Source: Pseudomonadota bacterium
GTDB lineage: Bacteria > Desulfobacterota > Desulfobulbia > Desulfobulbales > Desulfocapsaceae
Direction of reading: 5' to 3'
DNA: 64,000 bases
Assembly: GCA_018820855.1 (NCBI GenBank)
Contig: JAHJNL010000043.1
Coordinates: forward strand, 1 to 64,000
Below, piece after piece: positions 9,303 through 44,474 of this stretch. How positions within the stretch are numbered: position 1 is the stretch's first letter; each line of letters opens with the position of its first letter. The position numbers and the translations under genes were made by a program. A model generated the notes under the pieces. The model worked only from the letters and a program-made list of their open reading frames with translations. It ran no database searches and was not told the origin of the DNA.

Positions 9303-9989
9303 ATGAAACTCGATGTCCGCCAGATAGAAAAGCAGTTTGTCCTCCACAACCGGGGAGGGGTCAGGGTAACCGGTTTTTCCGATATCAGCTTTAATGTTGC
9401 CCGAGGGGAACTGCTGGCCCTGGTCGGTCCCAGCGGTGCCGGGAAATCTTCTGTTCTCAAGGCCATTTATCGGACTTATCTGGTAAACGGCGGCTCCATC
9501 CTCTTTCATCGTCAGGATGGCACGGTGGTGGATCTGGCTGTCTGCACCGAGAGCAGTGTTCTGGAACTGCGGCAGCGGGAGATCGGTTTTGTCACGCAGT
9601 TCCTCAAGGTGTTACCCCGTATCAGCGCTCTCCAGGCCGTGGCAGCGCCCCTCCTGGAATTGGGCGAAGAAGAGGATGCGGCACGCAGGCGGGCCGCTGA
9701 ACTGCTTGCTTTTCTCAATATCAGAGAGGAACTTTTTGATATCTCGCCCCTGACCTTTTCCGGCGGGGAACAGCAGCGGGTCAATATCGCCCGTGGTGTC
9801 ATTGCCCCCAAAGAGTTGTTGTTGCTTGATGAGCCCACAGCCTCTCTGGATGAGGAGAGTTCCTCCCGAGTCCTTAAATTGTTGGGCAATCTGAAAAAAC
9901 AAAACATTGCCATGATCGGTATTTTTCATGACCAGCGTAAGGTGGACCAGGTGGCGGATCACTGTTACAGAATTTTGAGAGAGGCATAA
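9303..9989 (+). CDS. phnL: C-P lyase ABC-type subunit PhnL
   Basis: 228 aa ABC-type ATPase required with PhnGHI to make ribose-1-phosphonate triphosphate. Walker A is GPSGAGKSS, the signature is FSGGEQQRVNIARGV and Walker B is LLLLDEPTASLD. It follows phnK after 27 bp and precedes phnM by 3 bp. Confidence 0.94.
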   Translation: MKLDVRQIEKQFVLHNRGGVRVTGFSDISFNVARGELLALVGPSGAGKSSVLKAIYRTYLVNGGSILFHRQDGTVVDLAVCTESSVLELRQREIGFVTQFLKVLPRISALQAVAAPLLELGEEEDAARRRAAELLAFLNIREELFDISPLTFSGGEQQRVNIARGVIAPKELLLLDEPTASLDEESSSRVLKLLGNLKKQNIAMIGIFHDQRKVDQVADHCYRILREA

Positions 9990-9992
9990 GAA

Positions 9993-11147
9993 ATGCAATT
10001 TGTTCTCCGTTCCACCCGGGTCCTGATCCGGGAAAGTATCCGTCCGGCAGATATTGTGATCCATCATGATCTGATCGAGGATGTATTACCCTTTCAGAGT
10101 GTCAGCGGCGGTTATGATCTTGGAAATATGCTTATTGCTCCGGGTATTGTTGACCTGCACTCTGATGCGATTGAAAAGGAGATAGAGCCCCGTCCCGGAG
10201 CCCATTTCCCCATCAGGTCCAGTGTCATTGAACTGGATAAGAAGTTGACCATGGCCGGAATCACCACCATGTATCATGCGGTGGCCTTTAATGACGAGGC
10301 CATTACCAAAAACCGAGGAACAGAAACGGCGGCCCGGATCATTCGCAGGATCAACGAGGCGGATCGCAATCAGCTGGGAGTCGACAATCTGGTGCATGCC
10401 CGCTATGAGCTGACCTCCTTTGCTTCGGTTCCGGTTATCAAAGAGCTTATCGAGTCCGGTGCGGTGCATATCCTTTCGGTAATGGACCACACCCCGGGAC
10501 AGGGACAGTTCAAGTCCATTGAGAATTGGAAAAAATTTCACCTGCCTGTTTATGACCTCTCAGACAGTGAAGCGGATCTGATCATCGAACAGAAACAGCG
10601 GGATAAGCTCCGCTCCTACGAGGTGGTCAGTGATCTCCTGCGTTTTGCCGGAGAATGCGGTCTGATGCTTCTTTCCCATGATGATGATTCGCCGGAGAAA
10701 ATTGATCTCATAGCCGATCTGGGTATCAGGGTTTCTGAGTTTCCGCTGGATAAAGATGTTGCCGCCTATGCCAGGGACAAAGGGATTGCCACTGGTATGG
10801 GTGCTCCGAATGTGGTCAGGGGACAGAGCCAGAGCGGGAATGTCTCGGCACGGGAACTGGTGCGGGCAGGCGTGTGTGATTTCCTCTGTTCCGATTATCA
10901 CCCGAGTTCAATGCTGCAGGCCCCTTACCTGCTCCACAATGAACTTCAGATGCCGCTGGTTGATGCTTTCCGGATGGTGACAGCAACCCCTGCTGCCCTG
11001 GCAGGATTGAATGACAGGGGAGAGATAGGCTCTGGAAAACTGGCTGACCTCCTGGTCATAGAAGACAGTTCTATTCCCCGGGTGGTTATGACCCTGAAGC
11101 GGGGGAGTGCTGTATACAACGGAAGAGGATGTCTCGGAAAGGAGTGA
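9993..11147 (+). CDS. phnM: Alpha-D-ribose 1-methylphosphonate 5-triphosphate diphosphatase PhnM
   Basis: 384 aa amidohydrolase that removes pyrophosphate from ribose-1-phosphonate 5-triphosphate, giving PhnJ its substrate. Diagnostic blocks are DLHSDAIEKEIEPRPG (metal-binding His region), YHAVAFND, SVMDHTPGQGQF, LLSHDDD and CSDYHPSSML. Length is typical of the family. Confidence 0.95.
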   Translation: MQFVLRSTRVLIRESIRPADIVIHHDLIEDVLPFQSVSGGYDLGNMLIAPGIVDLHSDAIEKEIEPRPGAHFPIRSSVIELDKKLTMAGITTMYHAVAFNDEAITKNRGTETAARIIRRINEADRNQLGVDNLVHARYELTSFASVPVIKELIESGAVHILSVMDHTPGQGQFKSIENWKKFHLPVYDLSDSEADLIIEQKQRDKLRSYEVVSDLLRFAGECGLMLLSHDDDSPEKIDLIADLGIRVSEFPLDKDVAAYARDKGIATGMGAPNVVRGQSQSGNVSARELVRAGVCDFLCSDYHPSSMLQAPYLLHNELQMPLVDAFRMVTATPAALAGLNDRGEIGSGKLADLLVIEDSSIPRVVMTLKRGSAVYNGRGCLGKE

Positions 11148-11149
11148 TC

Positions 11150-11890
11150 ATGCAGTATATCGGAATGTACAATCATGAAGAGTCCGTAACGCTGGGAATT
11201 TGGCCGACTCTGGCCCCCAATGCCAGTGTCAGGGATTCAAATTTCGGACGCTATACTGAGGTGCGCGATTTTGCCGAACTCATTGAATCCAGTCTTGATG
11301 ACTATTCCTATGTAATGGAACGCAGTTCCATTGCCTACAGTGATATCGGTAAATTCGTCAATATTGCTTCGGACGTCCGCATAAATCCCGGGAATCATCC
11401 CATGGAATGGGTGAGTCAGCACCACTGTCTCTATCGCCGGGTGCAGTATGGTTTTGCAGAATGTGATGACGAAGAATTTTTTTCAAGACGGCGCCAGCAT
11501 CAGGTCCATATCGGTCATGATGTATGGATTGGTCACGGAGCGACCATCATGGGAGGAATTAGCATCGGTAATGGGGCAGTGATTGGAGCGGGGGCTGTCG
11601 TCACCCATGATGTCGCTCCCTATACCATCGTTGCCGGAGTGCCGGAGAAGGAGTTGCGTCTTCGTTTTCCTCATAATATCCAGACGGCCATAGAGCGAAT
11701 TGCGTGGTGGGACTGGGACCATGAGACACTGAAAAAAAGGATGGGTGATTTTCACGATATCCACAAATTCCTTTCCCTGTACGGTCCTGAAATACGAGGA
11801 GACGGGAATGGGGAAGAACTCGCTGCGGCCCTTGCTGCCGTGGAAAAAAAGGAGAAACAGTATGAAGATAGTACTTGTTGTCGGAGCTAG
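11150..11890 (+). CDS. phn-operon hexapeptide-repeat acetyltransferase
   Basis: 246 aa. Left-handed beta-helix hexapeptide repeats (IGHDVWIGHGATIMGGISI and following) and a WWDW segment match the transferase family found in phn operons. ATG 11150 is chosen over 11129 because GGAAAGGAG lies just upstream and the phnM stop is two bases before. The substrate is unknown, though acetylation of an aminoalkylphosphonate would be analogous to PhnO. That is inference. Confidence 0.85.
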   Translation: MQYIGMYNHEESVTLGIWPTLAPNASVRDSNFGRYTEVRDFAELIESSLDDYSYVMERSSIAYSDIGKFVNIASDVRINPGNHPMEWVSQHHCLYRRVQYGFAECDDEEFFSRRRQHQVHIGHDVWIGHGATIMGGISIGNGAVIGAGAVVTHDVAPYTIVAGVPEKELRLRFPHNIQTAIERIAWWDWDHETLKKRMGDFHDIHKFLSLYGPEIRGDGNGEELAAALAAVEKKEKQYEDSTCCRS

Positions 11891-12476
11891 CGGAACAGGA
11901 AAGGATAGCCTCCTTCGTTCTGCCAGATCCTATTATAAACACGATTCCCGCTTCTGTTTTGCCAGACGTTTTGTCACCCGGCCTCCGGATGAAAACGAAG
12001 ATAACTATTATATTGATCGGGCAGGATTCCTTATCCTCAAAAATCATGGTTACTTTCTGGCGGAATGGGAGGCCTATGGCAATCTTTACGGCATTCCCTG
12101 GTCTGCCTGTGAAGCCGCTCAGGGTAGCACTCTATTCTGTTCAGTCTCGCGCACTGCAATAAGGGGAGTTGAGAAACAGTTTGATTCGGTGACCACCCTG
12201 CAGATTACGGCCAGGGCTGAGATGCTTCAGGAGCGGCTTGAAAAGAGAGCGCGGGAAAACGCTGCCAGCATTGAAAAACGGATAGCAAGGGCCAAGGAGC
12301 TTTGTCATGCCAGGGATCTGATCCTTTTTGATAATTCGCCTCCTCTTTCTCTGACTACTGTTTCCTTTATTGATATGTTGCCCAAGCTGGTCATGGAAAA
12401 GGCAGACTACTCTTTTAATAAAATGGGTTTTACGGAGAACTTGCCTTCGTTACGAACAGCCTGTCTGGTTGAATGA
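11862..12476 (+). CDS. phnN: Ribose 1,5-bisphosphate phosphokinase PhnN
   Basis: 204 aa guanylate-kinase-like enzyme that converts ribose 1,5-bisphosphate to PRPP, the exit step of the C-P lyase pathway. The P-loop is GASGTGKDS, with RFVTRPPDENEDNY and FLAEWEAYGNLYGIP blocks. ATG 11862 is preferred to the upstream 11745 start: GGAG lies seven bases before it and the family N-terminus begins here. The gene overlaps the acetyltransferase by 29 bp. Its roughly 25-residue C-terminal tail exceeds the E. coli length. Confidence 0.93.
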   Translation: MKIVLVVGASGTGKDSLLRSARSYYKHDSRFCFARRFVTRPPDENEDNYYIDRAGFLILKNHGYFLAEWEAYGNLYGIPWSACEAAQGSTLFCSVSRTAIRGVEKQFDSVTTLQITARAEMLQERLEKRARENAASIEKRIARAKELCHARDLILFDNSPPLSLTTVSFIDMLPKLVMEKADYSFNKMGFTENLPSLRTACLVE

Positions 12477-12570
12477 TCATGCAGTTGAGTCATTAGAAGA
12501 CGAATGACAGGAGGAAAACGTAACTGTCTTAAGTTGAGGTATAATCAAGGTTGTGGGAGAGGATTTTTGC

Positions 12571-12649
12571 AAGGGGGGGGCTTTCCTGATTTCGCTTTCT
12601 GTAAAAATCACGAAATGTTGGCGGATAAACAAGTGATTGTCCCCCCCTT
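12571..12649. other. G/C-tract stem-loop between phnN and the EAL-GGDEF gene
   Basis: AAGGGGGGG (12571 onward) is complementary to CCCCCCCTT (12641-12649) and encloses a second stem, ATTTCG/CGAAAT. It lies between two convergent genes, so it could act as a bidirectional 3' element. Neither side has a clear U-tract, so a terminator role is only possible. Confidence 0.35.
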
Positions 12650-12667
12650 AATAAGTTGCAGAGGTGT

Positions 12668-14494
12668 TTAAAGGGAGAACGTTTCAGCTTCTTTTCTCAT
12701 GTGATTGTCTGACCTGATAGTGTCGGCTTGTATCACTTGTCTTATCAATTCCTGCCCTGCAGGTCGGTGAATATAGAGAAAGCTGCCCTGCTGGAACTTG
12801 GCATAATGTTTGGCGATTGCCGCCTCTTCTGATAAATCTATATTCGCCATCCCAATAGAAGACGGCTCAATAACAACAGCGCCTACGGAAAGTCCCATGC
12901 GATTAAAGGAACAAATATTGCCCTGGCGGTCAGTGGTGGTTATTTGTTTGTTCTCTTCCCGGCCATCGTAAAAGCGCCCGATTTGACGGTCAAACTGATC
13001 CAGAATGCTTTGAACTTTGGCCTCCCAGGCACCTTCGTGGAAAATGGCGACAAAATCGTCACCACCAATATGACCGATAAAATTTTTCTCACTGTCTATA
13101 TTTGTTGTTAATAATTCGGTCACTAGCAGAATAATCTCGTCCCCCTTTCTGAACCCGAAGACATCATTGAATGGCTTGAAGTTATCAAGATCAAAATAAC
13201 AGATGATAAAGGGATGTTGTTGTTTTGAAAGTTTTTGCAGCTGTTTCTGAATTGGCACGTTGCCCGGTAAAAGAGTCAAGGGGTTTGCATGACGTGCCTG
13301 TGTGACCCGTAATTTGGTTATTTCATGCAAAAGATCGATCAATCGTGCCTTGCCGATGAGCTTGCACCTATCAAGGATAATAAATTCTTCGGTATACAGG
13401 TCAAGAGAGGTGGTCAGTCGATAACTCACTTCTTCAAGGGAGAGTGTTTTCTCGATTTGCAGAATGTTGCGGTTCATAAATTTGAGAATAGGTTCTTTCC
13501 CATACAATTCCTTACCGTAAAGGCTGGCGTAGACATTCATGAATTCTTTTTTCAACACCATACCAAGGGCTTCGTCGTCATGTACCACTACTATTGATTC
13601 TACATTTTGCATATCATTAAACATCTCGCCCACTACGAGAACCTTGGCAGTGGCCTGCACAGAAACAGCAGGCTGCATCAACAGTTCCACCGTTGGAGAA
13701 TCATTGTCTTCCTGATTTCGCTCCTCCTTTCTGAACAGGTGGAAGGGGATTTCCAGAGGAGGCATCGGTTTTGGCCTACTGAAATAATACCCCTGAACCA
13801 ATTCAACCCCAAGATTTCGCACCGTGGCGTATTCCTTCTCTGTTTCCACTCCTTCCGTAATCACTCGGCATCCCATGGACGTCGCAGTCTTCATTATCGT
13901 GCTGATAAATTGTTGTTTTGTTCTATCCTCGTCCACACCCTGAATAAAATGACGGTCCACCTTGACGATATCGGGCTTTATTGCCGACCAAAGCTTGAGT
14001 CCTGAATATCCTGCGCCAAGGTCATCAAGGGCCACCCTGAACCCCATATCACGATAATGGGTCATGACCTTCTGCATCAGGGCCATATCATCAACCGGAT
14101 GGGTTTCTGTCAGCTCGATAATAATCCGGCTACAGTCAATTCCTGCCTCTTCAGCCAGCTCTAACGTCTTTCCTGCTCTGAAATTTTCATGGAGGATACT
14201 GACTGGGTCAATATTCATAAAAAGTCGACCAGGGAGATTCAGCCTGGAGAATTGCTTGATCACTATCTCTCGGCATAAAAAATCAAGCTCGGCAAGATAG
14301 CCGCACTTGGTTGCTGCATCAAACAGCATCGTTGGTGAATGAAGGAGGGTGTTTACCGGTCCACGAATAAGTCCTTCATATCCATAAATTGTTTGATTTC
14401 CCAAACAGACAATGGGTTGGAAGTGAACTGTCAGATTTTTTTGCTGAAGAGTGGACTCAACGAGTGAACGAATGGAAGAATCGGAATTATTCAT
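12668..14494 (-). CDS. EAL-CBS-GGDEF cyclic-di-GMP turnover protein
   Basis: 608 aa. The EAL domain (about 5-250) retains EGLIR, NIDP, ELTE, DDLGAGYS, KVDRHFI, EGVE and QGYYF, so it could hydrolyse c-di-GMP. A CBS-pair region (about 285-405) follows, then GGDEF (about 410-575) with the GGDDF signature, which also looks intact. ATG at 14494 is chosen because CCAGGTAAGG lies just upstream. No membrane segment is seen, so it should act in the cytoplasm with ligand control through CBS. Confidence 0.9.
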   Translation of the reverse strand: MNNSDSSIRSLVESTLQQKNLTVHFQPIVCLGNQTIYGYEGLIRGPVNTLLHSPTMLFDAATKCGYLAELDFLCREIVIKQFSRLNLPGRLFMNIDPVSILHENFRAGKTLELAEEAGIDCSRIIIELTETHPVDDMALMQKVMTHYRDMGFRVALDDLGAGYSGLKLWSAIKPDIVKVDRHFIQGVDEDRTKQQFISTIMKTATSMGCRVITEGVETEKEYATVRNLGVELVQGYYFSRPKPMPPLEIPFHLFRKEERNQEDNDSPTVELLMQPAVSVQATAKVLVVGEMFNDMQNVESIVVVHDDEALGMVLKKEFMNVYASLYGKELYGKEPILKFMNRNILQIEKTLSLEEVSYRLTTSLDLYTEEFIILDRCKLIGKARLIDLLHEITKLRVTQARHANPLTLLPGNVPIQKQLQKLSKQQHPFIICYFDLDNFKPFNDVFGFRKGDEIILLVTELLTTNIDSEKNFIGHIGGDDFVAIFHEGAWEAKVQSILDQFDRQIGRFYDGREENKQITTTDRQGNICSFNRMGLSVGAVVIEPSSIGMANIDLSEEAAIAKHYAKFQQGSFLYIHRPAGQELIRQVIQADTIRSDNHMRKEAETFSL

Positions 14495-34538: not shown

Positions 34539-35300
34539 ATGCGATTTGCTCTTTACTATGCCCCTGCCTCTTCTTCCCTGCTGGGGGAGCTGGGCTGCAG
34601 GTGGCTGGGGCGTGATGCCCTCAGTCAACAGAAAGTCAGGCAGGATCGTTTTCCCGGTATTAGTCAGGACAGACTCCATGAGCTGACCCGCACTCCCAGA
34701 CGTTACGGGCTGCACGGAACCCTGAAGGCACCCTTCAGGCTGGTCGCCGATTACGATGTGGAGATGCTGCGATCGGCCATAGCTGATTTTGCCTGCCGCC
34801 GTCCTCTCTTCTCTATGCCATCACTGGTTCTCCGCCAGATTAATGATTTTTTCTGCCTGTGCCCTGAAAAACAGACACTGCCGCTGCAGAGTCTGGCGGC
34901 GGCCTGTGTGCAGAACTTCGATAGATACAGGGCAGCCCCGACCGCCGGTGAACTTGCACGCAGACGTCGTCACATTCTTACACCCGTTGAAAAAGATAAT
35001 CTTGCTGCCTGGGGATATCCGTATGTCCTTGATCAGTATCGATTTCATATTACGCTTACAACCAGAATATCGAGCAACAGGGAAAAGGAGGTGGTTTACG
35101 CCGCCCTCTCTGACATGTTTGCACCTGTACTCGGAGAGCCGATTGTGATGGATGCCATCTGTCTTTTTATTGAACCGGCTCCCGGACAAAAACTCTTCTG
35201 CACAGATCGTTTTCTCTTCAGCAGTTCAGACCAGCTCACCGAGAATATTGTAATCAATGCTAACCAGAAACAGCAGCAAAACGTCTATTCTGAATGGTAA
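34539..35300 (+). CDS. DUF1045 2H phosphoesterase (phn-associated family)
   Basis: 253 aa. It begins MRFALYYAPASSS and has two histidine motifs of the 2H phosphoesterase superfamily, HGTLKAPF (about residue 59) and HITLT (about 169). This family is often encoded in C-P lyase operons. In the C-P lyase pathway a cyclic 5-phosphoribosyl 1,2-phosphate must be opened, a step done by PhnP in E. coli. No phnP is seen here, so this protein is a reasonable candidate for that step, although it lies 22 kb from the operon. AAAGGA precedes the ATG. Confidence 0.85.
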   Translation: MRFALYYAPASSSLLGELGCRWLGRDALSQQKVRQDRFPGISQDRLHELTRTPRRYGLHGTLKAPFRLVADYDVEMLRSAIADFACRRPLFSMPSLVLRQINDFFCLCPEKQTLPLQSLAAACVQNFDRYRAAPTAGELARRRRHILTPVEKDNLAAWGYPYVLDQYRFHITLTTRISSNREKEVVYAALSDMFAPVLGEPIVMDAICLFIEPAPGQKLFCTDRFLFSSSDQLTENIVINANQKQQQNVYSEW

Positions 35301-36537: not shown

Positions 36538-37383
36538 ATGACATCGACCCTCTATCTGGCTTATGACGGCTCCATCAACGCCGATTGGGTTGCCCGCTAT
36601 GCTATCAATATGGCGGCCAACTCCCAAGATCCCAGGATCATCCTGATCCATATCCTGGATCACACCTATTCTCCAGACAAGATCGCCAGGAAAATCGAGG
36701 CAGTTGAAGGTGAATGTGCCATGCGCGGGGTGGGGACGACCAGCCGCATCCTGCCCCTCCGCAAAAACGTCTTTCAGTCCCTGCTCCAGGCTATTCCGGC
36801 GGGCGAGGACAGCCTCTGTGTATGCGGAGCTCGAGTTTCCTCTCGGGACAAAGGCTTTCTCGCCGGCACCATCTCCGAAAAACTCCTGCGCCGCAAGCAG
36901 TTCAAGGTCATGGCCATCCGGGTGGTCAAACCCGGCATCCTCGGAGCTCCCAAGGATTTGCTCTTCCCCCTTTCCGGTCATCCCAGGGGCTTTCAGGCAG
37001 CCATGTCATTTTTTCTGCTGTTGGCCCCGGAGGTGGAACGACTGCACCTTCTGCGGATCATGAAGGTCAGCTCCCTGTGGTTCCAGTATATGCCGGTTGC
37101 GACGGCCCGGGGCTTGCAGACAAAGGGTTTTACCTATATGAACGAGGTGCTGAAAGAGCTTCGCCAGCAGCTGGGGGAGAGTGATATCCACCTGGATACC
37201 AAGGTGATCCTCTCTGATGACTGGGTCAAGGAGATCCTTATCCATGCCAGCAAGACCCACGCCCAGATGATTCTGATGGGGGCATCGGATCGTAATCTGC
37301 CTTCCCGTTATTTTTACGGGAACAAGATCGAACAGATCCTCCGCCGTTCTCCCTGCGACGTGGGGATCTACCGCAAGATATGA
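36538..37383 (+). CDS. Tandem universal stress protein
   Basis: 281 aa containing two UspA-like segments: residues 1-140 (TLYLAYDGSINADWVARYA) and 150-281, ending in AQMILMGASD.NLPSRYFYGNKIEQILRRSPCDV. The ATP-binding G-x2-G-x9-G-S/T pattern is partly visible in the second half. ATG 36538 is preferred over 36448, with AGGTGG seven bases upstream. It overlaps the ATPase gene by 4 bp (ATGA), implying coupled synthesis and a regulatory role for the pump. Confidence 0.87.
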   Translation: MTSTLYLAYDGSINADWVARYAINMAANSQDPRIILIHILDHTYSPDKIARKIEAVEGECAMRGVGTTSRILPLRKNVFQSLLQAIPAGEDSLCVCGARVSSRDKGFLAGTISEKLLRRKQFKVMAIRVVKPGILGAPKDLLFPLSGHPRGFQAAMSFFLLLAPEVERLHLLRIMKVSSLWFQYMPVATARGLQTKGFTYMNEVLKELRQQLGESDIHLDTKVILSDDWVKEILIHASKTHAQMILMGASDRNLPSRYFYGNKIEQILRRSPCDVGIYRKI

Positions 37384-40091
37384 ACAGCCAGGCCAAACAG
37401 ATTCAGCAGCTCCCGCCGGATCGGGTCTATACTCTCCTGCACACGAGACCCGAGGGGCTGGGGGGCGGAGAGGTGGAGGAACGTCTGTTCCATGTGGGGC
37501 GGAACTCGTTCGACATCCCCGATCGCTGGAAAACACTGCGCAGCTTTGCCCGACAGTTCACCAATTTCTTTACCATCCTCCTTATTGTCTCGGCCTGCAT
37601 CTGTTTTGTCGCCCATCGTCTCAATCCCGGGGAGAGCATGAATTTTCTGGGCTGGGCCCTGTTTGGGGTGGCCCTGCTCAACGCCTTTTTCAGTTTTATC
37701 CAGGAGTATAGGGCCGAGCGGGCCATGGAGGCCCTGAAGAAATTTCTGCCCCAGTTGGTTCAGGTCCGACGTCAAGGGCAGATTGTCAGGATTCCGGCCG
37801 AGGAGATTGTCCCCGGTGATCTCCTCATCCTTGCCGAGGGCGACAAGATCACGGCGGATGCCAGGATTGTCGAGGCCGAGGGGCTGATGGTCGACAATGC
37901 TCCGCTCACCGGCGAGGCCAGTCCCTGTGTCCTTGTCCATGGACCGAGCCAGAGTCGACTGGTCGAAAGCAATAATATCGCTTTTGCCGGCTGTACGGTC
38001 ATCCGGGGCAGCGGCGAGGCGGTGGTCTTTGCCACCGGTCTGCGGACCGAGTTCGGCAAGCTGGCCCATCTTTCCCAGGAGATTAAGCGGGCGCCGTCGC
38101 CCCTGGAGCAGGAGACTGCTCACATGGTGCGGGTTCTCACTGTCATTGCCGTGAGCATGGGATTTGCATTTTTTATGTACGGGATGCTCACCGGCAGACC
38201 GCTGTGGGTGAATCTGGTCTTCATGATGGGGATCATCGTGGCCAATGTCCCGGAAGGGCTCTTACCCACCTTCACCCTGTCTCTGGCCATGGGCAGCCTG
38301 CGTATGGCCAAAAAAAATGTGCTGGTCAAGAGTCTTAATGCGGTGGAAGCATTGGGTGCAGTCCATGTTATCTGTTCGGATAAGACAGGGACGCTCACTG
38401 AAAACAGGCTCACCATCACCGAACTGCTCAGCCCCCTGCAGGGTACGTCTTATGCAGACAGGGAGCAGCTGGACCTCCTGACCTTAGCCCTGGCCGCCTC
38501 GGAGGTAAGGAACTCCGAGCAGGGCCTGAGCGGCGATCCTCTGGATGTGGCAGTGGCCGAACGACTGACTGCACTGGGCGGTGACCTGTTGATGCTCCGG
38601 GAACAGATTGAGCGCTACTTCACCTTTGACGTGGAGAAGCGACGGTCAGCGGGCATTATGACCTTTGCGGGGAAAAGGTTTTTTGTGGTGAAGGGAGCTT
38701 TCGAGGCCTTGGTTCCGATGATGACCGGTGTTCGCAGTCGTGCAGGGGATGAGGCGGCGAACCGGGAGGTATTAGAGCGGGCGGATGAGGTGCTGCGGGG
38801 CATGGCCGGTCAAGGTCTGCGGGTTATTGCTCTGGCCTGCCGGGAGCTGCGGGAAGGAGAGGGGGAGGGAGAAGAGAAAGATTCGGCGTCGCTCCAGGAC
38901 GTTCTGGAAAAAGAGCTGCTTCTCGCCGGCTTTATCGGTATTGAGGATCCGCTGCGCCAAGAGGTGCCGACAGCGGTGGCTAAATGCCATACCGCGGGGA
39001 TCGAGGTCCTGCTCATCACCGGAGATCATCCGGACACGGCCCAGGCCATTGCCCGCAAGGCCGGAATTCTGCCCCAGGAGGATGACCCGGCCCTGCTGAT
39101 GACCGGCAGTGAGCTGGAGCGTCTCACCGAGGCGCAGTTATCCGAGCGGCTGAGTCAGGGAACCAGGGTCTTTGCCCGGACCACTCCGGAACAGAAGATG
39201 AAGATTGTCGCGGCCCTCAAGGCTATGGAAAAAGTGGTGGCCATGACCGGGGACGGGGTCAATGACGCCCCGGCCCTCAAGGCCGCCGATGTGGGCATTG
39301 CCATGGGGCGGCAGGGGACAGACGTGGCCAGGGAGTCGGCCCAGATCATCCTCCTCGACGACAATTTTGCCTCCATTGTTGCGGGCATTGAGGAGGGGCG
39401 GACCGTGTTTGAAAATATCAAGAAGTTCACCAACTATGTCCTGGTGAGCAACGGCCCGGAAATCCTCCCCTACCTCCTCTATATACTTCTGCCGGTGCCC
39501 CTGGCTCTGAACGTGATCCAGATCCTTTCCATCGATCTGGGTACGGATATCATCCCCTCCATGGCCTTGGGTCAGGAGCCGCCTGACCCCGAAACCATGA
39601 ACAAGCCGCCCCGCCTCCGTGATCAGGGCCTCCTCACCCCGCCCCTTATCATTCACAGTTACCTCTTTCTTGGCCTTCTGGAAGGTCTCTGGTCGCTGGG
39701 ACTTTTTTTCTATGTTCTGACGAGCGGTGGCTGGCATTTCGGAGAGGAGCTGGCCACCGCAGATCCCCTGTATCGTTCGGCCATGGGGATTGCCCTGTCC
39801 ACCATCCTCCTCATGCAGATCGGCAATCTTGTGGGGCGTCGTTTTGCCAGGCGTTCCGGGCTTGACCGGACAATCTTCAAAAACAGGCTGATCCTCCTGG
39901 GTATTGCTGTCCAGGTGGTCTTTTCCTGGGCTACCCTCTATTATCCGCCCATGCAAAAGATCCTCAATACCGGACCGGTCCCCTTGTCCATCTATTTTCT
40001 GGCCTGGTTTGGGATTATTCTCATTTTCGGCAGTGACTATCTCAGGAAGCGATACCTGTTGGCGAGAGAGCGGCGTGCCATCGCCGATTGA
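37380..40091 (+). CDS. P-type ATPase with Na,K-ATPase-like (P2C) ion-binding residues
   Basis: 903 aa. N-terminal cation-ATPase domain, actuator (LTGEAS instead of the usual TGES), phosphorylation motif DKTGT at D334, nucleotide-binding KGAFE and hinge TGDGVNDAPALKAADVGIAMG. M4 has VANVPEGL (E292), M5 has SNGPEI (S690, N691, E694) and M6 has SIDLGTD (D719, T722, D723). These equal the Na,K-ATPase site residues E327, S775, N776, E779, D804, T807 and D808. No beta-subunit gene is nearby. A Na+ or K+ pump is likelier than Ca2+. Confidence 0.92.
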   Translation: MNSQAKQIQQLPPDRVYTLLHTRPEGLGGGEVEERLFHVGRNSFDIPDRWKTLRSFARQFTNFFTILLIVSACICFVAHRLNPGESMNFLGWALFGVALLNAFFSFIQEYRAERAMEALKKFLPQLVQVRRQGQIVRIPAEEIVPGDLLILAEGDKITADARIVEAEGLMVDNAPLTGEASPCVLVHGPSQSRLVESNNIAFAGCTVIRGSGEAVVFATGLRTEFGKLAHLSQEIKRAPSPLEQETAHMVRVLTVIAVSMGFAFFMYGMLTGRPLWVNLVFMMGIIVANVPEGLLPTFTLSLAMGSLRMAKKNVLVKSLNAVEALGAVHVICSDKTGTLTENRLTITELLSPLQGTSYADREQLDLLTLALAASEVRNSEQGLSGDPLDVAVAERLTALGGDLLMLREQIERYFTFDVEKRRSAGIMTFAGKRFFVVKGAFEALVPMMTGVRSRAGDEAANREVLERADEVLRGMAGQGLRVIALACRELREGEGEGEEKDSASLQDVLEKELLLAGFIGIEDPLRQEVPTAVAKCHTAGIEVLLITGDHPDTAQAIARKAGILPQEDDPALLMTGSELERLTEAQLSERLSQGTRVFARTTPEQKMKIVAALKAMEKVVAMTGDGVNDAPALKAADVGIAMGRQGTDVARESAQIILLDDNFASIVAGIEEGRTVFENIKKFTNYVLVSNGPEILPYLLYILLPVPLALNVIQILSIDLGTDIIPSMALGQEPPDPETMNKPPRLRDQGLLTPPLIIHSYLFLGLLEGLWSLGLFFYVLTSGGWHFGEELATADPLYRSAMGIALSTILLMQIGNLVGRRFARRSGLDRTIFKNRLILLGIAVQVVFSWATLYYPPMQKILNTGPVPLSIYFLAWFGIILIFGSDYLRKRYLLARERRAIAD

Positions 40092-40154
40092 CATCAAGCG
40101 TGTTGTGATCAATCCGGCGCAACCATAAAAGATGAGGAACAGCTGTGGAACGTA

Positions 40155-42662
40155 TTACTCTGTTTTGCTTCCCAGTTCTTCCACCGCCTTTGAGGCCACT
40201 GCAGACTTAGCCTCCTCCTTTGATGCCCGGTGCAGGGCCTGGTCCGCGGTATTTCTTGCCTCTCTTGCCGCCTCGATCCGGAGAAGGAGGTCTTCCGGAA
40301 AATTTTTGCCGGAACGTTCGATGGCGGCAAGTGTTGCCTGGGCCGCTTCCACGGCTTTGTCTGCTTCTTTCCGCGCCAATTGCGCTCGTTTCTGGGAGTG
40401 TTCGAAGTGATCCAGGGCTGCCACCACCTCTGCCATTCCCCCTTCTTCCGGCTCTGCATCAAGATCAAGGTCTTCAGCAGCCAGAACCAGAGCTACCATC
40501 TGCAAGCGGGACAGGAGACCTTCCACCGGTTTACCGGAAAGATCTTCAAGCAGATCACCTCGCAGACGGAATGGGACAAAGGTAAGGGCGGCCTCTGAGG
40601 AGTGGCTGACAATGGTGTCACTATCCATTTTGGTGACAATCTCTGCCGCTGTTTTGATCCTTGTTTCTGCCAGTTGCGCAGCAAGGTGTTTCTCGTTTTC
40701 TGCTGAGGAGGAGTCATAGTTCAGGGCAAAGAGGCGTATTGTTGCCCCGGTCCATTCTTCGTTTCGGGTAAGGAGATAGGCAAGGAGCAGTATCAGGCGG
40801 CTGGTTTTATCGCCATTCCACCAGACGTCTATCCGCTTTTCTTCCCCGTCCTTTTCGGCAAGGGCGGCAATGGACTCTTCATCTCCTGACCAGATAATCA
40901 GATTACAGCCTTGCAGGTAGGCGAGACGCAGATTTTTACCATAGAGCAGTTCACGTTTCTCCCGGGCCTGATCCGGACCTTGCTCCAGCCAGTTGAGGAG
41001 CAGGGTGTTGGCGTGCATGGGGCCGATACCCCAGGATTGGATCAGGGTCTGCAGTCCGGTGGTAGGGTCGGAACCGTTGATGACCAGGGGAAAGGCGTCG
41101 GAATTGCAGCGGTTGATATCAGCTCTCAGTTCCTGTTCTGCCTGATGCCGGAGGCGTTGTATCCGTATCCCTTCGCCCTGAATAAAGTGGACTGCGGCGG
41201 TGAGCCCGCTTCCTCCCTCGATCCAGGTGGCAAAGCTGAGCAGCTGACACCTGCGTTCGCTGCTGTCGGAAAGCGCAAGCAGGTAAGGGCGCCAGTCCCG
41301 TGGATGCTCTATTTCTTCAGCCGCAGCCAGGATACTTTTGCGGGCCTGCTGCAGTTGGTAGGAGCGCTGACCGTCTGCCCAGCGGGCAGGGCCGGAGGTC
41401 TTCTGCAGGTATTGGTAGATGGCAAAAAGGATGGCAACGGCAAGGACGCCGATCTTGAGATCAATGGCCATCATAACGCCGAGGCAGGCGAGGAATCCGG
41501 CAAGGCTGATAGTTTTATGATACCATCTGAATCGTGGCCGGAACGAGGGGCTTTGCGAGCGTGCTTCGAAGTAGGTGGCGTAGTTGAGCAGTCCGTAGGA
41601 TATGAGAAAAAACATGGTGACAATTCCGGCTATGAGATCCAGTTGCCCGAGGCCGATGGTGGCTCCGGCTATTGTCAGGGAGAGGAGTATGCCCCGGCGC
41701 GGATTGTTGTTGGGGCCGGAACCCTTGGCAAACGGTATGAGGAAGGGGAAAATACGGTCACCGGCCAGAGATTGCAGGATGCGGGGAGCGCCGAGGAAGG
41801 AGGCAAGGGCTGAGGAAAGAGTGGCGGCAACGACCCCGGCGTCAATAAGAAAACTCCAGGAGGCCACACGTTTCATGGCATGGTAATCGCGGGCCAGGGT
41901 ATCGTTGGGCAGGGCGCCGCTAAAGACCACGGCAACAGCGAGATAGACGAGAAAAGAGAGACCGACGGCGAGGAAGGTTCCAAGGGGCAGGCTTTTCCCT
42001 GGGTCCCGCAGATCGCCTGACATGCTCACCCCTTGGGTGAAACCGGTGACCGCCGGGAAAAAGATGGCAAAGAGTATCCAGAAATCGCTGCTCTGGGGAT
42101 TCCCATACCAGTTGGCTACAAGTGTTGACGGGCTCCATTGCTGTAATGCTCCTGAAAAGAAAGAGATCAGGGCCAGGACCAGGGTACCCATGATCAGGTA
42201 CTGGAATTTCGTGGCCCAGTCCGCTCCCAGCCAGGTCAGGAGAAACAGTCCCCCCAGGGCAAGGGCTGCACTGATCTGGGGAAAGAAGGGGATCTCTGTT
42301 ACCACTATGCTGGCCATTGCTTCGCCAAAGCCTATGCAATAGAAGGCAATGGAGATGGATTGGGCCAGGAAGAGGACAATGCCGATGGCTCCCCCGAACT
42401 CCACTCCCAGGGTACGGGAGATCAGGTAGTAGTCACCGCCGCCTTTGACCTTGTAATTGGAAACAATGGCAGCCAGGGAAAAGGAGGTGAGTATGGAGAT
42501 GAGATTGGCAAGGCAGATGATCAGCAGGGCCTTTCCCAGCCCGGCACTGCCCAGCACATGGCCCATCCGCAGAAAGAGAATGAGTCCGAGTATGGTCAGG
42601 ATGCTGGGAGTGAAAACTCCGGCAAAGGTCCCGAGTTTTTGGTTGTTGGCACTAGTGGACAT
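40155..42662 (-). CDS. SLC12-type cation-chloride cotransporter
   Basis: 835 aa. The N-terminus GTFAGVFTPSILTILGL and GLILFLRMG match the SLC12 (NKCC/KCC) family of the APC superfamily. About twelve transmembrane segments (to about 410) precede a cytoplasmic SLC12 domain with the IDVWWNGDKTSRLILLLAYLL block. A helical, Glu/Ala-rich tail (about 720-835) follows and looks like a coiled coil. It is convergent with the P2C-like ATPase gene across a 63-bp gap. Ions carried cannot be assigned from sequence alone. Confidence 0.9.
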   Translation of the reverse strand: MSTSANNQKLGTFAGVFTPSILTILGLILFLRMGHVLGSAGLGKALLIICLANLISILTSFSLAAIVSNYKVKGGGDYYLISRTLGVEFGGAIGIVLFLAQSISIAFYCIGFGEAMASIVVTEIPFFPQISAALALGGLFLLTWLGADWATKFQYLIMGTLVLALISFFSGALQQWSPSTLVANWYGNPQSSDFWILFAIFFPAVTGFTQGVSMSGDLRDPGKSLPLGTFLAVGLSFLVYLAVAVVFSGALPNDTLARDYHAMKRVASWSFLIDAGVVAATLSSALASFLGAPRILQSLAGDRIFPFLIPFAKGSGPNNNPRRGILLSLTIAGATIGLGQLDLIAGIVTMFFLISYGLLNYATYFEARSQSPSFRPRFRWYHKTISLAGFLACLGVMMAIDLKIGVLAVAILFAIYQYLQKTSGPARWADGQRSYQLQQARKSILAAAEEIEHPRDWRPYLLALSDSSERRCQLLSFATWIEGGSGLTAAVHFIQGEGIRIQRLRHQAEQELRADINRCNSDAFPLVINGSDPTTGLQTLIQSWGIGPMHANTLLLNWLEQGPDQAREKRELLYGKNLRLAYLQGCNLIIWSGDEESIAALAEKDGEEKRIDVWWNGDKTSRLILLLAYLLTRNEEWTGATIRLFALNYDSSSAENEKHLAAQLAETRIKTAAEIVTKMDSDTIVSHSSEAALTFVPFRLRGDLLEDLSGKPVEGLLSRLQMVALVLAAEDLDLDAEPEEGGMAEVVAALDHFEHSQKRAQLARKEADKAVEAAQATLAAIERSGKNFPEDLLLRIEAAREARNTADQALHRASKEEAKSAVASKAVEELGSKTE

Positions 42663-42872: not shown

Positions 42873-44474
42873 ATGATGGAAGCGAAATGGCTCAAGGCCC
42901 TTTTTCCCCGCTGTGCAGAACAGGTGGGAGACGACTGGGATACATTGATTGCAGGTTTTGGTGACAATGCTCTTCCGGAAGCGCTTCCTGAGTTCCTGGA
43001 GGCTGCCACTATTTCCCTGCCTGCCTATTTACCGGACCTGGCCCGTCTTGAATTGGCCTTGCATGGGCTGCAGGCCATAACGCCCCCTGCCTCAGCGGAG
43101 GAAGGAGCCAGCCTGCAGATCAACCCGTCCCTCACTCTCCTTCCCCTGAAATGGAAGCATCTGTGCAGCATGCTGTGGCAGAGGGAAACACAGGTGGGGC
43201 CCGAATCGGGCGAGGAGTTCGTCCTCCTCTACAAGACCTCCGTCAGGGGGAAGGTGCGGGTTCGTCCGGCTGCCGACAGGGATCTGCTGGCCCTGAAGAT
43301 GATGGCTGAAAATCTCGATCGACAGGCAGTGGCAGACGAGACCGGGGTACCTGTGGGGGCAGTGGATGCAGCCATAGAGGCGGCCTGTGATCAGGGGCTT
43401 CTTCTCTCTGCCCCTTCAGCCATCGTGCGAACTGCTGCCCATTATCCGGCAGATGGGCCTGACGGCTGGCAGCGGCACCTGCGTTCCGCCTACTTCACCC
43501 TGCAGTGGCATGTTACCCAGGCCTGTGATCTTCATTGCAAACACTGTTATGACCGTTCCGCTATTTCACCCCTGACCCTGGACCAGGGCAAAATCATCCT
43601 TGATCAGTTCCGTGAGTTTGTTCTTGATCAGAGGGTGCATGGCCAGGTGACCTTCACTGGCGGCAATCCCCTTCTCTATGCCCATTTTGCAGAACTCTAC
43701 CGGGAGGCTGCTCATCGCAATTTTACCCTCGCCATTCTTGGCAATCCCACGTCCAGGCAGGTACTTGAGTCCCTGCAGCAGATTCAGCCTCTTTCCTTTT
43801 ATCAGGTGAGCCTGGAAGGATTGCCTGAACACAATGACTCCATCAGAGGGCCTGGGCACTTCCAGCGTATCATGGAGTTTCTCGAGATCCTGAAGGAGCT
43901 TTCCATCTATTCCATGGTGATGCTGACGCTTACCCGGGAAAACATGGGACAGGTCCTGGAGCTGGCGGAGATCCTGCGGGGAAAGGTCGATCTTTTTACC
44001 TTCAACCGTCTCTCTCAAACAGGAGAAGGGGCGGATCTGGCTGCTGCGGACAAAAAAAAATACCGGGCCTTTCTCGAAGATTATCTTGAAGCGGCAAAGT
44101 CAAATCCCACCATCAGTCTCAAGGACAATCTGATCAATATCCTCAAGGCAGAAGAGAGAACGACTCCTTTTGGCGGCTGTACCGGTTTCGGCTGCGGTGC
44201 CGCCTTTAACTTCTGTTCCCTCCTGCCCAACGGTGACATGCATGCCTGCCGTAAATTCCAGTCACCCATCGGCAACGTGCTTGAATCTTCTCTGCTGGAG
44301 CTCTATCACTCTCCTGCTGCAGAACGCTATCGACTGGGGCCGGAAGAGTGCCGAGGCTGTAAAATCCGTCCGGTCTGCGGCGGTTGCCAGGCCGTGATCC
44401 AGTCCAGTGGCCTGGATATCACCATAAGTCGAGATCCTTACTGCTTTTTGGAAGGGGTGGATAAAACTTCATGA
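42873..44474 (+). CDS. SbtM-like radical SAM/SPASM peptide maturase
   Basis: 533 aa. The radical SAM motif is CDLHCKHC (C218, C222, C225). The preceding 210 residues resemble the family-specific leader-binding region of selenobiotic-peptide maturases. The C-terminal SPASM-like region has many Cys (GGCTGFGCGAAFNFCSLLPN, ACRKF, ECRGCKIRPVCGGC) for two auxiliary Fe-S clusters. Such enzymes modify Cys or Sec-containing ribosomal peptides (thio- or selenooxazole). No precursor peptide could be found within about 350 bp on either side. Confidence 0.85.
   Translation: MMEAKWLKALFPRCAEQVGDDWDTLIAGFGDNALPEALPEFLEAATISLPAYLPDLARLELALHGLQAITPPASAEEGASLQINPSLTLLPLKWKHLCSMLWQRETQVGPESGEEFVLLYKTSVRGKVRVRPAADRDLLALKMMAENLDRQAVADETGVPVGAVDAAIEAACDQGLLLSAPSAIVRTAAHYPADGPDGWQRHLRSAYFTLQWHVTQACDLHCKHCYDRSAISPLTLDQGKIILDQFREFVLDQRVHGQVTFTGGNPLLYAHFAELYREAAHRNFTLAILGNPTSRQVLESLQQIQPLSFYQVSLEGLPEHNDSIRGPGHFQRIMEFLEILKELSIYSMVMLTLTRENMGQVLELAEILRGKVDLFTFNRLSQTGEGADLAAADKKKYRAFLEDYLEAAKSNPTISLKDNLINILKAEERTTPFGGCTGFGCGAAFNFCSLLPNGDMHACRKFQSPIGNVLESSLLELYHSPAAERYRLGPEECRGCKIRPVCGGCQAVIQSSGLDITISRDPYCFLEGVDKTS

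Follow-up and report, generated by a model that had tools for sequence, protein, structure and literature searches.

P2C pumps, the class of the animal Na,K-ATPase alpha subunit (PDB 8d3u), are already known in prokaryotes. The available part of one study describes a group of prokaryotic Na,K-ATPase alpha-type sequences (group I) without the beta-assembly motif (PMC9609216), and the available part of another describes methanogen P2C pumps said to have the residues of each of the three Na+ sites in place, while archaeal P2C pumps are treated there as uncharacterised and their role is called unknown (PMC10654040). Neither text, as far as these parts extend, describes a Usp or TrkA partner of a P2C pump. 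Control of a P-type K+ pump by a Usp-domain protein is found in the KdpFABC/KdpD system. KdpFABC is a P1A pump (PMC10654040, available part). In KdpD the Usp domain sits within a histidine kinase; it is able to bind c-di-AMP and to regulate K+ transport, c-di-AMP binding being described for the domain of S. aureus KdpD (PMC8214093, available part). The third system of relevance is the SLC12 family of cation-chloride cotransporters, KCC and NKCC, and for NKCC1 the residues S613 and S614 are described as making up the Na+ site (PMC7889885, available part).

The locus analyzed here lies in the window, by which we mean the whole stretch of 64,000 nucleotides of DNA that was analyzed, on contig C19 of a genome of 4.82 Mb. 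A tandem usp gene (36538-37383, + strand) encoding 281 aa with two Usp stretches is followed by a gene for a P-type ATPase of 903 aa (37380-40091, + strand). The stop of the former overlaps the start of the latter by 4 bp (ATGA, 37380-37383), an overlap already reported in the first-pass annotation. Convergent to the pump gene, again as reported there, is a gene for an SLC12-family cation-chloride cotransporter of 835 aa (40155-42662, - strand), and beyond it lies a gene for an SbtM-type radical SAM/SPASM maturase (42873-44474, + strand). The Pfam domains at the locus are E1-E2 ATPase, Usp and SLC12/AA_permease. The two partner types, pump and cotransporter, are thus indeed side by side in a bacterium, as far as the window is concerned. 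Compared with the described systems, the pump is P2C-like rather than P1A, its partner is a stand-alone tandem Usp protein encoded beside it rather than a domain of a histidine kinase, and its ion site III is altered, whereas the methanogen pumps are described as retaining all three sites.

Ion sites and beta subunit

The residues E292, S690, N691, E694, D719, T722 and D723 and a TGEA motif had been read from the pump sequence, and each is present at its position. With the animal alpha subunit the pump shares IVANVPEGLL in M4, YxLxSNxPE in M5, DLGTD in M6 and the equivalent of Q923. The mapping uses Na,K-ATPase residue numbers and ion-site assignments that we take to be the standard ones. Alignment of the window pump with 44 related loci, drawn from the best 80 of 403 candidates, yielded 42 readable rows, the three others being cut short. 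D719, N691, E694, D723 and Q813 are invariant in all 42 rows, and S690, the counterpart of S775 of the Na,K-ATPase, is serine in 41. Site III differs from that of the animal enzyme in that D926 is replaced by N816 and E953/E954 by V844/Q845 in the window pump, which consequently has neither of the site III acids, D926 and E954, of the Na,K-ATPase proper. The position of D926 is occupied by asparagine in 42 of 42 readable rows, and that of E954 by glutamine in 29 and by glutamate in 13. These residues suggest a pump in which sites I and II are intact and site III is changed. The TGEA motif had been singled out as an oddity; with alanine in 18 and serine in 26 of the 44 readable family rows, it is ordinary for this family.

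The altered site III raises the question of whether a P2C-like pump of this kind may transport different ions, such as H+ for K+ or solely Na+. The general replacement of D926 and the frequent replacement of E954 would agree with such a change, but the serine at S690 in nearly all rows does not, as the gastric H+,K+-ATPase has a lysine at the S775 position, and we regard transport of other ions as unlikely.

When the whole genome was searched with the beta-subunit model PF00287, a single match came up, at 12.9 bits and thus below the cut-off of 23.3, so that the earlier remark that no beta subunit is visible extends, at this cut-off, to the whole genome of the window. The SYGQ motif is also absent from the window pump, which reads GGWHFGEEL at residues 783-791 instead. 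Thus, the pump differs from the animal Na,K-ATPase in having neither a beta subunit above the cut-off nor SYGQ, the pair of features that marks the Na,K-ATPase proper, and in having a usp partner. SYGQ does occur in the M7-M8 loop of a single relative (L067), but was rejected there as a beta-assembly motif and is taken as chance on a conserved loop, because it is found in only one of the 45 proteins scanned, Gly 788 is invariant in the 42 proteins that reach the loop, and the residue preceding this glycine varies.

Genes beside the pump

The protein encoded upstream of the pump scores 61.7 bits against PF00582 (gathering threshold 24), with two stretches in tandem. A tandem Usp is encoded directly upstream of the pump in all 12 orthologs of the family. 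Among the wider loci, defined by pumps at least 53% identical (44 of the best 80 of 403 candidates), Usp is upstream in 43; the contig of the remaining locus starts inside the pump, and in L091 the upstream Usp is cut by the contig end. Some of the wider loci are contigs of the family genomes (L063, for example, is G007), and the counts of 12/12 and 43/44 are not additive. The usp stop and the first aligned pump codon are at most about 110 bp apart in 43 of 43 loci, with the exact 4-bp overlap in 15. The 44 loci are labelled as Thermodesulfobacteriota, Pseudomonadota (Rhodospirillales), Spirochaetota, Bdellovibrionota and Myxococcota, and many are from metagenome bins; the pair occurs in the cultured Malonomonas rubra DSM 5091 and Desulfopila aestuarii DSM 18488. 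Searched from the side of the Usp, the 296 genomes of a phylum sample gave matches (E<=1e-15) only in the three that have an orthologous pump, adjacent in each case, and within the family the query found the 12 pump genomes, G004 and a remnant in G018. As a control, 52 neighbours of 27 P2A-type pumps included Usp at most once and TrkA_N at most once, an upper bound that follows from the position of PF00582 and TrkA_N outside the 25 commonest of 97 families. Across 19 usp-pump loci, no family occurs in more than three of the 98 other neighbours. The usp-pump pair is a self-contained module, and usp, not the SLC12 gene, is the conserved genetic partner of the pump.

An osmolyte island was also considered and was rejected, as no recurrent family was found among the neighbours of the 19 other usp-pump loci. 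A glycine-betaine-type ABC locus does lie beside the usp remnant of G018, and homologues of part of that locus lie beside the usp-pump pair of G007.

The canonical nucleotide motif of Usp proteins is G-2x-G-9x-G(S/T). In the window Usp the motif stretches read GARV...GT and GASD...GN and look degenerate, which makes nucleotide sensing by this protein uncertain.

A deeper sample of 15 P2C-like loci comprised all nine from genomes of the phylum sample with pumps of 44-45% identity, five of eleven near-full-length loci from genomes of the genus g16 (42-44%) and L101. Usp is upstream in 13 of them (7/9, 5/5 and L101), usually at tandem length, about 280 aa; in L152 the assignment is by BLAST only, with no Pfam match, and in L151 the gene is broken into two pieces. 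Upstream of the pumps of G242 and G304 (short contig) Usp was not found. In three related loci, of Geobacter (L103, L104 and L105), two TrkA_N/TrkA_C (RCK) genes are located directly downstream of the pump, in place of Usp. The pump frame of L104 is broken by a stop, and L117, with a pump similar to the TrkA-linked ones, reaches the contig end. With tblastn, neither Usp nor TrkA was found beside the pumps of L100 (apparently the G242/L154 locus), L156, L107 and the archaeal L110 and L112; in the tree, L103 and L105 have L107 as their sister. TrkA proteins are regulators of K+ transport, and the exchange of Usp for TrkA/RCK thus provides circumstantial support for K+ as an ion moved by the pump. 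The exchange also points to control of the pump by a soluble sensor.

The protein of the convergent gene combines an AA_permease core with an SLC12 C-terminal domain (Pfam). It scores 463 bits against TIGR00930, below the cut-off of 953, and it matches KCC1 along most of its length, with an NKCC-like TM8: the TM8 fragment scores about 53 bits with NKCC1 versus about 26 with KCC. Its serine pair of the NKCC1 Na+-site type, S283/S284, is invariant in 13 of 13 aligned sequences. The first-pass annotation had set the two genes beside the animal arrangement in which Na,K-ATPase energises NKCC, and such a partnership is not supported by comparison of genomes. Among 93 genomes of the family, an orthologous pump (at least 64% identity) is present in 12, SLC12 in 22 and both in six, and only in the genome of the window are the two linked; they are unlinked in G007, G034, G036, G037 and G053. 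The same holds for two genomes of the phylum sample with an orthologous pump and SLC12 (G097 and G344) and for one with a pump of 45% identity (G161). The flanks of 80 pump-type loci (the best 80 of 403 candidates, 44 of which belong to the pump family of the window) contain no SLC12 gene, many of these flanks ending at contig ends. The nearest relative of the pump, in G007 (89-90%), is on contig C37 and the SLC12 gene on C82, more than 110 kb from either end of its contig. Finally, no orthologous pump was found in 16 of the 22 SLC12-bearing family genomes, in one of which (G004) the contig ends just past usp.

The junction of the two parts of the locus can be located with blastn. At the DNA level the window resembles the usp-pump locus of G007 up to 40058 and the SLC12-SbtM locus of G018 from 40154 onward; the two matches meet in the interval 40059-40153, which places the join at or just before the pump stop or in the intergenic gap. 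SLC12 adjoins SbtM in G007 and G018, the two genomes with the closest SLC12, as it does in the window. G018 retains SLC12 and has no orthologous pump; 2.5 kb from SLC12, in the orientation of the window, are about 150 bp of a decayed usp that contains a stop. In G004 a contig ends next to usp (81%), and a distantly related SLC12 paralogue (35%) lies 5.6 kb from this gene. The survey of neighbours thus found no recurring linkage to the pump, but an SLC12-type gene near usp in these two genomes. Their closeness speaks against a chance join and leaves weak local clustering; the proximity of usp and SLC12 may predate the species to some extent, yet it is not maintained. The SLC12 gene is mostly a local neighbour of the pump.

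A general pump-SLC12 module was accordingly rejected, and a local option was kept owing to G018 and G004. It would make the two proteins a functional pair in this lineage, with the pump energising NKCC-like uptake, as the adjacent and convergent genes, the TM8 serines, the usp remnant of G018 and the shared contig of G004 might indicate. The separate contigs in G007, the unlinked genes in the other family and phylum genomes with both orthologs, the pump-type flanks without SLC12, the SLC12-bearing genomes in which no orthologous pump was found, G018 among them, and the adjacency of SLC12 to SbtM outside the window argue to the contrary and make such a pair quite improbable.

Class of the pump

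The pump had been called Na,K-ATPase-like rather than of the Ca2+ type, and several comparisons concur. Its best NCBIfam subfamily profile is TIGR01106 (P2C) at 547 bits, yet below the curated cut-off of 946, followed by PMR1 (505), SERCA (412), P2D (383), P2B (360) and P3A (355). Searches of the PDB rank Na,K-ATPase alpha-3 at the top (479 bits), ahead of SERCA2 (375), SPCA1 (373) and LMCA1 (359), and for a bacterial P2A control (L131) the order is reversed, with LMCA1 at 680 versus Na,K-ATPase at 410 bits. At the position of D719, equivalent to D804 of the Na,K-ATPase, all 32 P2C-like rows have D and all 13 P2A-type rows have N; the SERCA counterpart is N796. The window pump thus has D719 where the P2A hallmark is N, and it carries the P2C hallmark, DLGTD in M6 together with IVANVPEGLL in M4. 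The other listed residues are less telling, as the 13 P2A-type rows retain E292 in 11, N691 in 13, E694 in 12 and D723 in 13, have T or S at T722 in 12 and have serine at S690 in 5. Within the listed set, only D719 separates the pump from Ca2+ pumps.

Two quick maximum-likelihood trees, in which the P2A side comprised 12 or 8 bacterial/archaeal P2A-type sequences and LMCA1, placed Na,K-ATPase on the side of the pump and split off P2A with an SH-aLRT of 100. Na,K-ATPase forms a long branch and is placed outside the usp-linked clade, and the alternative grouping, in which Na,K-ATPase joins P2A, gave AU-test p values of 0.129 and 0.089 and was not rejected. The phylogeny proposed earlier as a check is therefore favorable as to the P2A split and indecisive in the AU test, and it covers P2A alone, P2B, P2D and P3 being compared by profile scores only. 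For L043 and L110, two deeper sequences counted as P2C-like, PMR1 is a better-scoring profile than P2C. An AlphaFold model of the pump had a mean pLDDT of 56, too poor for use. With these caveats, profile, PDB match, motifs and tree support the window pump as P2C-like. A P2A-type Ca2+ pump that resembles Na,K-ATPase through convergence, as the ion-site residues common to P2A pumps, the second rank of PMR1 and the indecisive AU test might hint, is very improbable in view of the D804 equivalent, IVANVPEGLL and DLGTD, the profile and PDB rankings, and the split from the 12 bacterial/archaeal P2A-type rows and LMCA1.

Proposed working of the usp-pump pair

Judged from its sequence, the locus probably encodes a beta-less Na+/K+-type P2C pump and its dedicated cytosolic regulator, Usp, in one two-gene operon next to SLC12. 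Most likely the pump would export Na+ and import K+ at the expense of ATP without a beta subunit. Its cycle would probably involve two rather than three Na+ ions, because every readable member has Asn at the D926 position and most have Gln at that of E954. The usp and pump genes are presumably co-transcribed, and their overlap is as expected for coupled translation. The tandem Usp would most likely bind the cytosolic side of the pump or sense nucleotide, and so adjust pump activity under salt or energy stress. A pair of TrkA (RCK) proteins, a kind of regulator of K+ uptake systems, would take this role in the three loci where it replaces Usp. More tentatively, bacterial P2C pumps might in general be two-component systems, a beta-less pump with an exchangeable sensor, tandem Usp or TrkA-RCK pair, and nucleotide-gated. 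We know of no such cytosolic sensor in animal Na,K-ATPases.

The literature searched, judged by titles and abstract openings, contains no description of a usp-P2C operon or of a TrkA pairing. The function of prokaryotic P2C pumps is an open question for archaea (PMC10654040, available part), and a conserved partner makes the job of such a pump easier to test. Its presence in cultured species renders the gene pair open to expression, deletion and assay, and the pairing of usp with the pump is a result worth following.

The M7-M8 loop of the pump family

The M7-M8 loop of the pump family follows a consensus of GGW, any residue, an aromatic residue and glycine. A literal SYGQ, resembling the beta-assembly motif of the Na,K-ATPase alpha subunit, occurs in this loop of one family member (L067), probably by chance.

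Gene surroundings of the pump and SLC12

An SbtM-type thio(seleno)oxazole radical SAM maturase gene (42873-44474, + strand) lies divergent from SLC12 in the window, and this synteny is kept in two related family genomes, G007, which holds the nearest relative of the pump, and G018. In the latter the pump has been lost, yet several of the flanking genes (locus L144, contig C103) match the G007 pump locus; a decayed usp and the adjoining glycine-betaine-type ABC operon lie at 9506-13288 there. Upstream in the window, a DUF1045 protein (34539-35300, + strand) matches the TIGR03223 profile (putative phosphonate metabolism) with 240.8 bits, slightly below the cut-off of 248.95.

Neighbours of deeper P2C-like and P2A-type pumps

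In three Geobacter-type and Chloroflexi loci a deeper P2C-like pump is followed immediately by a pair of TrkA (RCK) genes instead of being paired with Usp (L103, 10802-12144; L104, 4385-5718; L105, 10826-12160). Two of the 52 neighbours of the P2A-type pumps (L115-L142) are Na_Ca_ex exchangers, in keeping with a Ca2+ role for this group.
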